From Parvibaculum lavamentivorans DS-1 (GTDB taxonomy: Bacteria; Pseudomonadota; Alphaproteobacteria; Parvibaculales; Parvibaculaceae), in the NCBI RefSeq assembly GCF_000017565.1, contig NC_009719.1, forward strand, positions 2,649,001 through 2,713,000: a stretch of DNA of 64,000 nucleotides. Reading direction: 5' to 3'. A model generated the notes under the pieces. The model made no database searches. It saw nothing but the letters and a program-made list of their open reading frames with translations, and was not told where the DNA came from. The position numbers and the translations under genes are program-made. Below, one piece after another: positions 985 through 29,729 of the stretch (position 1 is its first letter; every line of letters starts with the position of its first letter).

Positions 985-1020
985 CAAAAAAGTGGGGGCT
1001 TCTGTTGCCAGGTGCCCCCG
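985..1020 (-). terminator. rho-independent terminator of ssrA
   Basis: Read on the minus strand, CGGGGGC (1020-1014) pairs with GCCCCC (999-994) across a 14-base loop. The stem is followed by AC and a run of six T (991-986). It lies just after the tmRNA body and before sspB, and is the expected 3' end of the tmRNA precursor. Confidence 0.8.
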
Positions 1021-1312
1021 AACCCCGCCTTACCCGGCTAAAGGTAAGGACTTAAATCGAGGTTGTCGCACTGCATTAAGCAGCGAGACGCGCCTCAGCA
1101 TAGTTGTCGTTGGCAACTATAAAACGGCCCGATGACGGCGGAACCATGCCGGGCAAAAAGACTGTCTTTACACCCTCGTCGATCCTGGTTCGCCCCCAAG
1201 GTCCCTGCCGCGACAGGGAAAATTGGTGGAGGCGCCGGGTACTGCCCCCGGGTCCGAATGGTTTATTACACAATCCGTTTATCGCCATAGCCGGTCGGAA
1301 ATCCGTCCGGCA
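1021..1312 (-). ncRNA. ssrA: tmRNA, circularly permuted two-piece form
   Basis: On the minus strand the acceptor piece comes first. A T-arm stem CCGGG/CCCGG with loop GGCAGTA is followed by CGCCTCC and an encoded ACCA whose last base is 1224. After a 26-base intervening loop (1223-1198) the coding piece starts with GGGGGCG at 1197, which pairs with CGCCTCC to rebuild the acceptor stem. The mRNA-like part carries the resume codon GCC at 1114-1112 and encodes the tag ANDNYAEARLAA, ending in TAA at 1078-1076. A distal hairpin CCTTACC/GGTAAGG (1049-1028) and the terminator follow. This 3'-half-first order is the known alphaproteobacterial arrangement. The outer 5' end (about 1312) is an estimate from the putative -10 box. 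Confidence 0.95.
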
Positions 1313-1318
1313 CCCATC

Positions 1319-1324
1319 AATATA
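1319..1324 (-). promoter_or_regulatory. possible -10 box of ssrA promoter
   Basis: TATATT on the minus strand, placed 6-8 bases before the inferred 5' end of the tmRNA precursor. No good -35 match is seen at 17 bp; a CTTCAA is the only candidate. Weak, position-based call. Confidence 0.3.
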
Positions 1325-19544: not shown

Positions 19545-20057
19545 ATGAGCATTGAGGAAAAAGTCGAGCGGCACACCATCGCCGTCCTCGTGGACAACGA
19601 GGCGGGCGTGCTCGCGCGCGTCGTCGGCCTGTTTTCCGGCCGCGGCTACAATATCGAGAGCCTGACGGTGGGCGAGGTCGACCAGGCCGAGCACACGTCC
19701 CGCATCACCGTCGTCACCGCTGGCACGCCGATGGTGATCGAGCAGATCAAGGCGCAGCTCGACCGTCTCGTGCCCGTGCACCGGGTCATGGACCTGACGG
19801 TGGAAACGAATTCGGTGGAGCGCGAAATGGCGCTCATCAAGGTGGCGGGAACCGGCGAGCGCCGCGTCGAGGCGCTCCGGCTCGCGGATGCCTTCCGCGC
19901 CCGCGTCATCGATACGACGCATACGTCGTTTGTGTTCGAAGTGACGGGTACGCCGTCGAAGATCGACGCCTTTATCGGGCTGATGCGCCCCTTGGGGCTG
20001 GTGGATGTGTCGCGGACAGGCGTGGTGGCAATCGCCCGCGGTCCGGAAGCGATGTGA
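19545..20057 (+). CDS. ilvN: acetolactate synthase small (regulatory) subunit
   Basis: A 170-residue regulatory subunit that binds the feedback inhibitor (valine) and boosts IlvB activity. The N-terminal ACT domain reads HTIAVLVDNEAGVLARVVGL, FSGRGYNIESLTVGEVDQ and ITVVTAGT; the C-terminal domain has REMALIKV and EVTGTPSKIDAFIGLMRP. The length is normal for the long form (IlvH-like). ATG 19545 starts the ACT domain directly; an in-frame extension upstream overlaps ilvB and lacks family similarity. It is 58 bp after ilvB and 29 bp before ilvC. Confidence 0.96.
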   Translation: MSIEEKVERHTIAVLVDNEAGVLARVVGLFSGRGYNIESLTVGEVDQAEHTSRITVVTAGTPMVIEQIKAQLDRLVPVHRVMDLTVETNSVEREMALIKVAGTGERRVEALRLADAFRARVIDTTHTSFVFEVTGTPSKIDAFIGLMRPLGLVDVSRTGVVAIARGPEAM

Positions 20058-20062
20058 TTTAG

Positions 20063-21106
<1,044 letters not shown>

Positions 21107-26123: not shown

Positions 26124-26195
26124 GGCCGTTCCGGCTTCCGTTCCGGCATGCCACCCGATGTGCTAAACCCCCTCCGTCCAACCTCCGGAGGCTCC

Positions 26196-27401
26196 ATGCG
26201 CATCGGCACACCGCTTTCTCCTTCCGCGTTCCGCGTCATGCTTCTCGGCTCGGGCGAGCTCGGCAAGGAAGTCGCGATCGAGCTTCAGCGGCTCGGCGCC
26301 GAGGTGATCGCCGTCGATCGCTACGAGAACGCGCCCGCGCAGCAGGTCGCGCATCGCAGCCATGTCATCGCCATGACGGATGCCGGGGCGCTTCGCGCGC
26401 TTGTCGAAAAGGAGCGTCCGCATCTCATCGTGCCGGAAATCGAGGCAATAGCGACGGATGAACTGGCGCGCATCGAAGCGGACGGTCTCGCCGAAGTGAT
26501 TCCGACCGCGCGCGCCGCCCAGCTCACCATGAACCGCGAGGGCATTCGCCGTCTCGCGGCGGAGGAACTCGGGCTTCCCGTCTCGCCCTATGCCTTCGCC
26601 TCCACCGCGCAGGAGCTGAAGGATGCAATAGCGGCGGGTATCGGATTTCCCTGCTTCGTCAAGCCGGTGATGTCGTCTTCCGGCAAGGGGCAGAGCCTGC
26701 TTCGCGGGCCGGACGATGTTCAGCCCGCCTGGGATTATGCGATGGCAGGCGGCCGCGTCGAGAGCCCGCGCGTCATCGTCGAGGGGCTGATCGACTTCGA
26801 TTACGAGATCACGCAGCTCACGGTTCGTGCGCGCGGGCAGGGCGGCGAGATCGAAACGCAGTTCTGCGCCCCGGTCGGCCATCGTCAGGTCAAGGGCGAT
26901 TATGTCGAAAGCTGGCAGCCGCAGAAAATGAGCGACAAGGCGCTCGCCGCCTCGCGCGACATCGCGGCGAAGGTTACGGCGGCGCTGGGCGGACGCGGGA
27001 TTTTCGGCGTCGAGCTTTTCGTGAAGGGCGACATGGTCTGGTTTTCCGAAGTGAGCCCGCGTCCGCACGACACCGGCCTCGTCACGCTTATCACGCAATA
27101 TCAGAGCGAGTTCGCGCTTCATGCGCGCGCCATTCTCGGCCTTCCCGTCACCGTGGACATGATTTCGCCCGGTGCCAGCGCCGTCATTTATGGCGGGCTC
27201 GAAGAAAAGGGCATCGCCTTCGAGGGCGTCGAGGCGGCGCTCGCGCTGCCCGGCACCGACATCCGGCTTTTCGGCAAGCCGGAATCCTTCGAGCGCCGCC
27301 GCATGGGCGTCGCGCTTGCCCGCGCCGGAGATACCGACGAGGCACGCAAGGTCGCGAAGCAGGCGGCGGATGCCGTCCGACCCGTCTCCGGGACAAAATA
27401 A
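26196..27401 (+). CDS. purT: formate-dependent phosphoribosylglycinamide formyltransferase
   Basis: A 401-residue PurT, an ATP-grasp enzyme that formylates GAR in purine synthesis using formate and ATP instead of formyl-folate. Motifs: [67 protein letters not shown] (ATP-binding Lys/Ser loop), [26 protein letters not shown]. The length is standard. ATG 26196 has CGGAGG just upstream. The last codons (residues VRPVSGTK) are repeated as DNA about 1.3 kb downstream (28642-28672), after an inserted two-gene cassette. Confidence 0.96.
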
Positions 27402-27403
27402 AT
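27373..27403 (+). repeat. direct repeat A, copy 1 (3' end of purT)
   Basis: These 31 bases cover the last nine codons and stop of purT. They match 28642-28672 with one mismatch (C at 27378, A at 28647). The mismatch turns CGA into AGA, both Arg in the purT frame. The two copies bracket the WYL/DUF1330 cassette. Confidence 0.92.
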
Positions 27404-27507
27404 CTCGTTCGACTGAAGTATGGCATGCTCGCAAAAGCGGACATTCGCTCATGTCCGATGCGATCCCGGTTGCCTGACCCAAAGCATTTGTCGAGGAGGT
27501 TCCGTAC

Positions 27508-28266
27508 ATGTCGAGAACAAGTCGGCTATTCGAGCTGCTCGGCGTGTTACGCGCACGCAGGATGCCTGTTACAGCCCCCGATCTCGCGCGCGAACTTGGT
27601 GTCTCGCCGCGGAGTATATACCGCGACATCGACACATTGCGTTCGCTAGGGGCGCCTATCGAAGGCCAGGCGGGTGTCGGCTATTCTTTGAAAGAAGGCT
27701 TTTTTCTTCCGGATCTCGCATTTTCGCCCGATGAACTCGACGCGTTGACTCTCGGTCTGGGCTGGGTGCGGCAGCGAGCCGATCCTGCTCTGGCACGATG
27801 CAGCGAAAGCGCCCTGGCAAAAATATTTTCCGCGAAAAATAACGGCTCAATGAGCGCCCAATTACCTGCTGTCGTAACGGCGGCCTCGACGTCTGAGCCT
27901 GCGGTCCCTCCGCAGGCCGCATTGTTGCGGGATGCGATCCGCCGGCAACGGAAAGTTGCGATCAGCTATGAAGACGCGCAAGGCTCGTTGTCGGATCGTG
28001 TCATCTGGCCGATCACCATCGTCTATTTCGACGATGTCCGTGTGCTGGCGGCCTGGTGCGAACGCAGACATGCCTTCCGTCATTTCCGCATCGATCGTTT
28101 GCGTGTGAAAACGATTTTGGAGGAACGCTACCCCGGGAGACGTCAATCGATCGTGACGCAGTGGCGGCAGCAGGATCGCGACTGGCGTTCCATGCTGACA
28201 ATTTCTGACACGCCGAAACGCTACCAATCGGCGGGTGCCCTTACCGGTGCCATGTCAAAGGAATGA
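27508..28266 (+). CDS. WYL-domain transcriptional regulator (YafY-like)
   Basis: A 252-residue regulator. The N-terminal HTH is MSRTSRLFELLGVLRARRMP, APDLARELGVSPRSIYRDID, followed by APIEGQAGVGYSLKEGFFLP, the classic HTH_11-WYL linker. The WYL part (about 125-225) has LRDAIRRQRKVAISYEDAQG, VIWPITIVYFDDVRVLAAWC and FRHFRIDRL. WYL domains bind nucleic acid or small ligands and occur in many stress and defence regulators. It is three bases before the next gene and is likely co-transcribed with it. Both genes lie within a repeat-flanked insert downstream of purT. Confidence 0.9.
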   Translation: MSRTSRLFELLGVLRARRMPVTAPDLARELGVSPRSIYRDIDTLRSLGAPIEGQAGVGYSLKEGFFLPDLAFSPDELDALTLGLGWVRQRADPALARCSESALAKIFSAKNNGSMSAQLPAVVTAASTSEPAVPPQAALLRDAIRRQRKVAISYEDAQGSLSDRVIWPITIVYFDDVRVLAAWCERRHAFRHFRIDRLRVKTILEERYPGRRQSIVTQWRQQDRDWRSMLTISDTPKRYQSAGALTGAMSKE

Positions 28267-28269
28267 CCA

Positions 28270-28641
28270 ATGGTTTCGTTTTCACCTGCCGCCTTCGAGG
28301 CCTTTCTGGCCGAAGACGATGATTCAGCCGTCGTCATGTTGAACCTCCTGCGGTTCGCGCCGGATGGCGGGCGGGAGAGATATTTGGAATACCTGCAAAT
28401 GGCCAAGCCGATTCTCGCTCGATTTGGTGCGAAAATCCTGTTCGGCGGCGATGGCCTGCCGGTGCTCACGACGGGGCAGGCGCAGGGTTGGGATGCCGCC
28501 GTGCTGGTTCAATATCCGCGTCGAGCCGCGTTCAAGAGCATGGTCGACGATCCGGAATACCAGATTGCGTTCAAGGTCGGAGAAGCAGCAATTGCCGATA
28601 TCGTGCTTCAGCCTTTGAGGCATATCGAGGGTGGGGTGTAA
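28270..28641 (+). CDS. DUF1330-like small alpha/beta protein
   Basis: A 123-residue protein resembling the DUF1330 (dimeric ferredoxin-like) group: SAVVMLNLLRFAPDGGRERY, then LEYLQMAKPILARFGAKILF and LVQYPRRAAFKSMVDDPEYQ. It is preceded by the WYL regulator with three bases between, so the regulator probably controls it or acts with it. The family has no settled activity. It ends exactly where the second copy of the purT 3'-end repeat begins (stop at 28639-28641, repeat from 28642). Confidence 0.78.
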   Translation: MVSFSPAAFEAFLAEDDDSAVVMLNLLRFAPDGGRERYLEYLQMAKPILARFGAKILFGGDGLPVLTTGQAQGWDAAVLVQYPRRAAFKSMVDDPEYQIAFKVGEAAIADIVLQPLRHIEGGV

Positions 28642-28672
28642 CCGTCAGACCCGTCTCCGGGACAAAATAAAT
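28642..28672 (+). repeat. direct repeat A, copy 2 (duplicate of purT 3' end)
   Basis: The distal copy of the 31-bp purT 3' end, starting one base after the DUF1330-like stop codon. It keeps the purT stop codon and the TAAAT that follows it, but here it is non-coding. Confidence 0.92.
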
Positions 28673-28775
28673 TTCCCTTTCCGGCTTCCAGCCTCTCGCA
28701 GTCCCGTTGCGCGGGGGCTATCTCTTGCGCCATGTTGGCTTGCCCGTGTCGGGGCGCCGGTTCAGGGAGCAAGAA

Positions 28776-29729
28776 TTGACCTATCTCTTTCTCGTCGTCG
28801 GCCTTGTGCTGCTTCTCGGTGGGGCGGAGTTTCTGGTCAAGGGCGCAGCGTCGCTCGCGACCCGGCTCGGGGTTTCGCCTTTTCTCATCGGGCTCACGCT
28901 TGTCGGCTTCGGCACGTCCGCGCCGGAGCTTGTCGCCAGCCTTGAAGGCGCCTTTCAGGGCTATCCGGGCATCGCGGTCGGCAATGTCGTCGGCTCCAAC
29001 ATTGCCAACATCCTCCTCATTCTCGGCATTGCCGGTCTCATCTTTCCGATGACGGTGGATCGCGGTGCGTTGAAGCGGGATGGCAGCATGATGCTCGGGG
29101 CTGCCGCCATCATGATGGGCGCCTGCCTTTATGGCGTGCTGTCGCGCGAAGTCGGATTGGGCTTCCTCGCGCTTCTCTCTGTCTATCTCATCTATACCTA
29201 CCGCGCCGACCGCAGGCTCCAGGATGGCACCGCGAAGCTTCATGCCGGCGAGGCGGAGTTCCTGACCTCGACGGGACCCAAAACCTCTCTGCTCGTTGAG
29301 ATCGTCATGGCGCTGGGCGGGCTCGTCGCGCTTGTCACCGGCGCCTCGCTGCTCGTGGATGCGGCCGTCGAGATCGCGACCAGGCACGGCGTCTCCGATT
29401 CGGTCATCGGCCTCACCCTCGTTGCCGTCGGCACCTCCTTGCCGGAGGTGGCGACCTCGGTGCTCGCCGCCTTCCGCCGTCAGTCGGACATCGCCATCGG
29501 CAATGTCGTCGGCTCCAACATCTTCAACGTGCTCGGTATCGCCGGCATGGTCGCCGTGGTGAAGCCGGTTCCGGTGCCGGCCGACATCGCCGGCTTCGAC
29601 ATCTGGGTCATGGGTGCCGCGTCGCTCCTGTTTCTGGTTTTCGCCTGGACCGGGTCGCGGATCGGGCGGGTGGAGGCGCTTTTGCTGCTGGGCGGCTACG
29701 GGGCTTATGTGACGGTTTTATTGCAGTAA
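28776..29729 (+). CDS. calcium/sodium antiporter family protein (CaCA, YrbG-like)
   Basis: A 317-residue cation exchanger with about ten transmembrane helices built as two inverted repeats. The alpha-1 motif is GFGTSAPELVASLEGAFQG with GNVVGSNIANILLILG; the alpha-2 motif is AVGTSLPEVATSVLAAF with GNVVGSNIFNVLGIAG. The duplicated Glu residues (APE, LPE) form the ion site. It exchanges Ca for Na or H at the inner membrane. The start is TTG 28776 behind AGGGAG; an upstream in-frame start would add a soluble extension across the repeat region. Confidence 0.92.
   Translation: MTYLFLVVGLVLLLGGAEFLVKGAASLATRLGVSPFLIGLTLVGFGTSAPELVASLEGAFQGYPGIAVGNVVGSNIANILLILGIAGLIFPMTVDRGALKRDGSMMLGAAAIMMGACLYGVLSREVGLGFLALLSVYLIYTYRADRRLQDGTAKLHAGEAEFLTSTGPKTSLLVEIVMALGGLVALVTGASLLVDAAVEIATRHGVSDSVIGLTLVAVGTSLPEVATSVLAAFRRQSDIAIGNVVGSNIFNVLGIAGMVAVVKPVPVPADIAGFDIWVMGAASLLFLVFAWTGSRIGRVEALLLLGGYGAYVTVLLQ

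Follow-up and report, generated by a model that had tools for sequence, protein, structure and literature searches.

The 3' end of purT in Parvibaculum lavamentivorans DS-1 carries inserted DNA with two genes, a WYL regulator and a DUF1330 protein, and the purT end is present a second time behind them. The site lies in a stretch of 64,000 nucleotides (the window, to whose first base coordinates refer unless stated otherwise) of a genome consisting of a single contig of 3,914,745 bases. The insertion is real, as are the duplicated gene end and the foreign genes, and the case is ordinary in kind. The reading favoured here, with a probability a little below one half, is a one-off capture of a foreign fragment that used no dedicated machinery and duplicated the purT end.

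The purT gene, encoding formate-dependent GAR transformylase, occupies positions 26148..27401 on the forward strand, with a start that may be 26196, and is intact and full length (TIGR01142, 584.5 bits; cut-off 502.15). The insert opens with a leader, the spacer 5' of the WYL gene (27407..27507, +). An HTH_11-WYL (YafY-type) transcriptional regulator of 252 aa follows at 27508..28266 (+), identified by Pfam (HTH_11, 59.1 bits, cut-off 25; WYL PF13280, 51.3 bits, cut-off 21.8), by its relatives and by its place in a tree. Three bases separate it from the gene of a 123-aa DUF1330 protein (28270..28641, +; PF07045, 31.0 bits, cut-off 23). Next comes a Na/Ca exchanger family gene (28776..29729, +; PF01699, 216.8 bits). 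The earlier note had described only a WYL and a DUF1330-like gene inside, three bases apart, with neither integrase nor transposase. This description stands, as HTH/WYL and DUF1330 are the only Pfam matches between the repeats and none of the six further ORFs of at least 80 aa that overlap the insert matched Pfam at E up to 0.01.

The proximal copy of the repeat lies at 27373..27406 (+) and the distal copy at 28642..28675 (+). Compared directly in the DS-1 window, they share 32 of 34 bases over this length and 30 of 31 in the core (27373-27403 and 28642-28672). Because the purT stop is at 27401, the core consists of the last 29 nucleotides of purT followed by AT, and the full proximal copy of those 29 nucleotides and five more. 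The sole core mismatch, at 27378, is CGA/AGA, which encodes Arg both ways and is synonymous. The distal copy abuts the DUF1330 stop with no gap (28641/28642), and it continues into the native purT-exchanger spacer while the proximal copy continues into insert DNA. The recurrence of 31 bases at 28642 with one synonymous mismatch, right after the DUF1330-like stop, is thus as first noticed. A DDE transposon or insertion sequence was rejected, as no inverted pair links the insert ends and the duplication is at least 31 nucleotides long.

No third site in the 3.91 Mb genome matches a 25-base core of the repeat with up to three mismatches, and the reversed control gave 0 matches. In 1.2 Mb of the genome, 52 direct-repeat pairs lying 300-8000 bases apart reached the score threshold. 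Read by eye, most of these are dispersed repeats or long stretches of paralogous or tandem genes, and one further short pair (28 nt) resembles two terminator-like stem-loops. A second duplicated gene end flanking an insert was not seen by eye among the 52 pairs, gene context being checked for part of them.

Among 61 genomes searched, 35 possess purT. One of these, G053, belongs to another family and was left out, so that 34 family loci were examined downstream, with at least 2.0 kb of DNA after purT in 33 of them (2,016 bases in G015, 2,787 in G005) and 522 bases in G008. The purT genes of the other family loci are 73-96% identical to that of DS-1. The WYL-DUF1330 pair follows purT in two of the 34 loci, DS-1 (G000) and its sister G011, and both have two copies of the repeat, with one difference over 31 nt in DS-1 and two in G011, where the repeat reaches 37 nt with three differences. 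In the remaining 32 loci, the insert and a second repeat copy are absent from the downstream DNA examined. When the purT end was compared with up to 5 kb of downstream DNA, the best score was at most 13 in these 32 loci and 28 in both occupied ones. In 14 empty loci the exchanger is the first shared gene after purT, at a distance of 63-178 bases (the G008 contig ends inside it). In the other 18 it is a LysR regulator, at 112-1001 bases, and one of these loci, G025, keeps a short exchanger remnant. The WYL-DUF1330 DNA at purT is an insertion. The comparison that the earlier note had proposed thus came out as it predicted, with two copies at occupied sites and no second copy at empty ones, 14 of which run into the exchanger; the opposite case, the two genes at purT with no repeat, was not encountered.

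A relaxed pattern of the site, run over 40 family genomes, matched twice in DS-1, twice in G011 and once each in G009 and G016, in every case at purT. Together with the comparison of empty and occupied sites, this identifies the repeat as a second copy of the purT end that goes with this insert. A common dispersed sequence unrelated to purT, the other outcome that would have spoken against the first reading, is rejected, since the genome holds two matches and the family matches lie at purT ends only.

The region after purT is variable in general. The exchanger is present in 16 of the 34 loci, DS-1 and G011 included, is reduced to a remnant in G025, and was not seen in 17. Between purT and LysR, 0.6-1.0 kb of other DNA is found in G029, G033, G030 and G036. 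G011 has a leuA-like gene (HMGL-like and LeuA_dimer; L032:6714-8423) between LysR and mreB, where several other loci have a similar gap of 2 kb and DS-1 has none (window between 30773 and 31312).

A scan of the genome collection turned up relatives of the WYL gene at 25 loci, that of G011 among them, in Bradyrhizobium, Afipia, Neorhizobium, Rhizobium, Sphingomonas, Xanthomonas and others. Most are 63-81% identical to it, and two fragments are 56 and 68% identical. In 20 of the 25, counting G011, there is a DUF1330 relative a short way downstream, two of the 20 being partial. The WYL gene is also found away from purT in two further Parvibaculum genomes, accompanied by DUF1330 in G015 but not in G004. 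A class-level DUF1330 search (385 searched, E 1e-30) returned DS-1 and G011 only, the G015 copy evidently being outside the sample. By eye, likeness to the other copies ends at the DUF1330 stop codon, and about 25-30 nt before the WYL start look like the leaders of some of them. In L110 a SnoaL-like gene (L110:5769-6284) replaces DUF1330 after the WYL gene, and in L108 one (L108:5863-6363) follows a partial DUF1330 match, which suggests partner exchange. No paper covering DUF1330 together with WYL was found in the literature searched.

The WYL proteins of DS-1 and G011 group with Xanthomonas in the tree (support 100/98), far from six family WYL paralogues, across a branch that is long and at which long branches meet; seven rows were left out as duplicates (L066-L068) or as broken or partial (L126, L128-L130). 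A copy of a resident paralogue was rejected as the source, the genome's other WYL protein, at genome position 118,896, being 38% identical and on a separate branch. The GC content is 0.579 in the insert and 0.626 in the window, and GC3 is 0.617 and 0.661 in the two genes and 0.791 in purT. Judged from sequence relationships and composition, the pair looks foreign in affinity and horizontally acquired. The pair could in principle have been ancestral at purT and lost elsewhere through recombination between the repeats, after which a single copy would remain; this is very improbable, as it demands loss in nearly all other lineages and runs against both the tree, where WYL joins Xanthomonas and distant groups apart from the family paralogues, and the differing GC.

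Flanking repeats were sought at 28 WYL loci, of which 24 are distinct once both views of G011 are dropped and G015 and G004 are each taken a single time. None of these 24 other loci has a flanking direct repeat longer than 12 nt within 900 bases on each side, so the repeat is a feature of this event rather than of the cassette. The search for other WYL/DUF1330 pairs with like ends, which the earlier note had suggested, therefore found none. Among the matches of 20 ORFs within about 3.5 kb of six other WYL loci (L112 left out), there is no transposase or integrase family; several of these ORFs have no match. Relatives exist on plasmids, the best being 73% identical, in Neorhizobium galegae, and a limited search found no plasmid record with 80% of the insert. 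No DUF1330 relative was found in phage records at E 1e-3, nor in IMG/VR contigs by the patterns used in a limited search.

Between DS-1 and G011, the pair has dS values of 0.122 and 0.154, against a median of 0.473 for 37 ORF pairs in the syntenic stretch. Three ORF pairs with dN/dS of at least 0.78 (10567, 15782 and 19646) were set aside as probably out of frame; at 19646 the real gene was confirmed to be ilvC on the other strand. Among the remaining 34, WYL has the lowest dS and DUF1330 the third lowest; if all 37 are counted, two of the set-aside pairs fall below both. At fourfold sites the difference is weak against purT (22/194 vs 46/245, p 0.034) and strong between insert and exchanger (p 9e-6). 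In the leader, 97 of 100 aligned bases agree (97%), whereas the native spacer that follows the distal copy is 78% identical; the repeat copies, 31/34 each, diverge like purT (91.7%) and unlike the leader. In 1235-base windows, the nucleotide identity of the insert region is below that of the ilvC region, which is top; ilvC (20087-21106) is the most conserved 1.2-kb stretch between the two genomes (96.7%) in the syntenic part compared. Within the insert, differences number 18 in the 166 bases of 28476-28641 and 51 in the approximately 1,070 bases of 27407-28475, a split predicted neither by a clean young unit nor by simple descent. The low dS of the pair and the leader identity suggest that the insert is younger than the split of the two genomes or was swapped between lineages. 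Against this, selection would also yield the leader identity, purT's own fourfold difference is close, and the last 166 bases of DUF1330 are more diverged than the rest of the insert.

The low dS of the pair, the leader at 97% against the spacer at 78% and the repeats diverging like purT are hints of a mobile islet. The 1,269-bp unit of the pair and one repeat, itself lacking an integrase, would then have entered DS-1 and G011 separately, at the same purT base and after their divergence, carried there by an enzyme acting in trans or by homologous recombination for which the 31-37 nt repeat alone sufficed. For the repeat copies of the two occupied genomes, parsimony requires 6 steps for one ancestral insertion and 5 for separate copies over 31 bases, and 7 steps for each over 34 bases. 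Separate entry of such an islet is considered improbable.

The favoured one-off capture could have followed either of two routes. A break at the purT end would be repaired with capture of a foreign fragment, the staggered ends being filled in, or homology at one end would guide an illegitimate join at the other (homology-facilitated illegitimate recombination). Both processes can duplicate recipient sequence, and neither needs an integrase. In favour of capture, both occupied genomes have a Ku gene for end joining. The DS-1 genome also contains nine tyrosine-recombinase matches elsewhere, so that enzymes for either capture or integrase-driven insertion are present; an enzyme may thus have acted in trans, which counts against capture. 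Two of the nine (G000:C1:1303498-1304019 and 3813549-3814070) have the same scores and ORF lengths and are possibly copies of one mobile element. Homology-facilitated illegitimate recombination has been proposed, in PMC5361080, for gene modules beside retained older genes, and the same paper describes it as quite rare in experiments, a further point against capture. The low dS of the pair, as a hint that the unit moved more than once, weighs in the same direction.

According to PMC5704250, tyrosine integrases recombine at repeats of 8-60 bp, at the 3' ends of housekeeping genes and leaving the gene unbroken. A 31-nt repeat that spares the 3' end of a housekeeping gene bears this signature, which counts against one-off capture and fits another origin of the ends. 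An integrative element or a prophage that encoded a tyrosine integrase would have inserted here, with attL at 27373 and attR at 28642, and all but two cargo genes would later have been deleted, leaving a CIME-like relic; the intact purT fits this equally, as does the presence of both copies in both occupied genomes. Precedent for such remains is given in PMC3146451, in which 15 ssrA islands of Dehalococcoides lack integration modules between their repeats. No integrase family match lies between the repeats, however, and the cassette is flush with the DUF1330 stop. The repeated purT tail is variable within the genus, its relaxed pattern occurring in 4 of the 40 family genomes, which makes a dedicated attachment site unlikely. 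The other 32 loci have no second purT end downstream, and in none of them does the next shared gene lie more than about 1.0 kb past purT, leaving little space for an element. A limited IMG/VR search gave no exact match to the site, phage records have no DUF1330 relative, and no complete related element with the same site was found at the 32 other loci or in IMG/VR. Use of the purT end as an attachment site in the manner of a tRNA gene, proposed in the earlier note, is thus not borne out by the variable tail, the short gaps, relatives without such ends and the IMG/VR result, although it is possible. A relic of this kind is a tentative second reading, and one-off capture is rated a little above it.

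The earlier idea of a homologous purT end from a related lineage is close to a Campbell-type single crossover, by which a circle bearing the pair and the purT end of a related Parvibaculum would have integrated. Such a crossover would leave the shared segment as a direct repeat, as is observed, and by eye the bases that immediately follow the purT stop in the proximal copy agree with G016 at 9 of 10 positions. The copies nevertheless sort uncleanly by origin, at the step counts given above, and limited searches found neither 80% of the insert in plasmid records nor the site or a DUF1330 relative in IMG/VR. This origin is judged unlikely.

As regards known classes of element, the insert lacks the integrase of its own that defines an IME, ICE or prophage, the Pfam matches between the repeats being HTH/WYL and DUF1330. 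It shares with CIMEs (cis-mobilizable remnants of decayed ICEs or IMEs between attL and attR) candidate att-like direct repeats at a gene 3' end, an intact target gene and cargo free of integrase. It differs from them in that no related complete element was found at the other 32 loci or in IMG/VR, and in having just two genes and a variable target. The term CIME is applied to decayed integrase-made insertions in PMC5704250. IMEs at the 3' ends of the housekeeping genes guaA, trmE and rplL, from the same source, likewise duplicate and preserve the gene end but encode integrases, and purT does not appear in the available portion of their table. The effector-immunity modules of V. cholerae, from PMC5361080, resemble the DS-1 case as foreign modules beside retained native sequence; their proposed anchor is a conserved upstream region, whereas DS-1 and G011 show just a 31-37 nt repeat. 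The pair also resembles YafY-type WYL regulators with adjoining small proteins, in which HTH_11 and WYL domains are combined and the next gene lies a few bases downstream. The partner varies by host, being DUF1330 in DS-1 and SnoaL-like in L108 and L110.

The order of a regulator and then a small protein, with a three-base gap, suggests a single transcript. No sigma-70-like promoter was found for the pair. The WYL protein, whose nearest solved structure is PafC (E 3.4e-11), is probably a ligand-sensing regulator of the pair. The DUF1330 protein, related in sequence to the solved RPA0582 (3dca, E 1.3e-12, and 3hhl), would be a small enzyme or ligand-binding protein co-transcribed with the WYL gene; the fold of the family is presumably a ferredoxin-like barrel. 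An inverted repeat, CGGACAT-N6-ATGTCCG (27438..27457, +), is found 51-70 bases ahead of the WYL start. G011 has it too, and the DS-1 genome contains no second occurrence at up to three mismatches. It may be an operator for the WYL protein; inspection by eye did not reveal it in the leaders that precede other copies. Rfam gave no structured RNA at E up to 0.1, and a stable leader structure was rejected (z -0.29). Elsewhere in the window, ARAGORN reports a tmRNA at 985-1319 (-) with the tag ANDNYAEARLAA, starred, which we take to mark the permuted type.

The locus is a single case that leaves the general view unchanged, mostly one of ordinary gene capture. It is a clean one, in which empty and occupied sites show a tiny foreign operon at the end of a housekeeping gene, with that end duplicated and without a recombinase in between. 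Scars of this type could reveal how pairs of a regulator and an enzyme spread outside recognised mobile elements.
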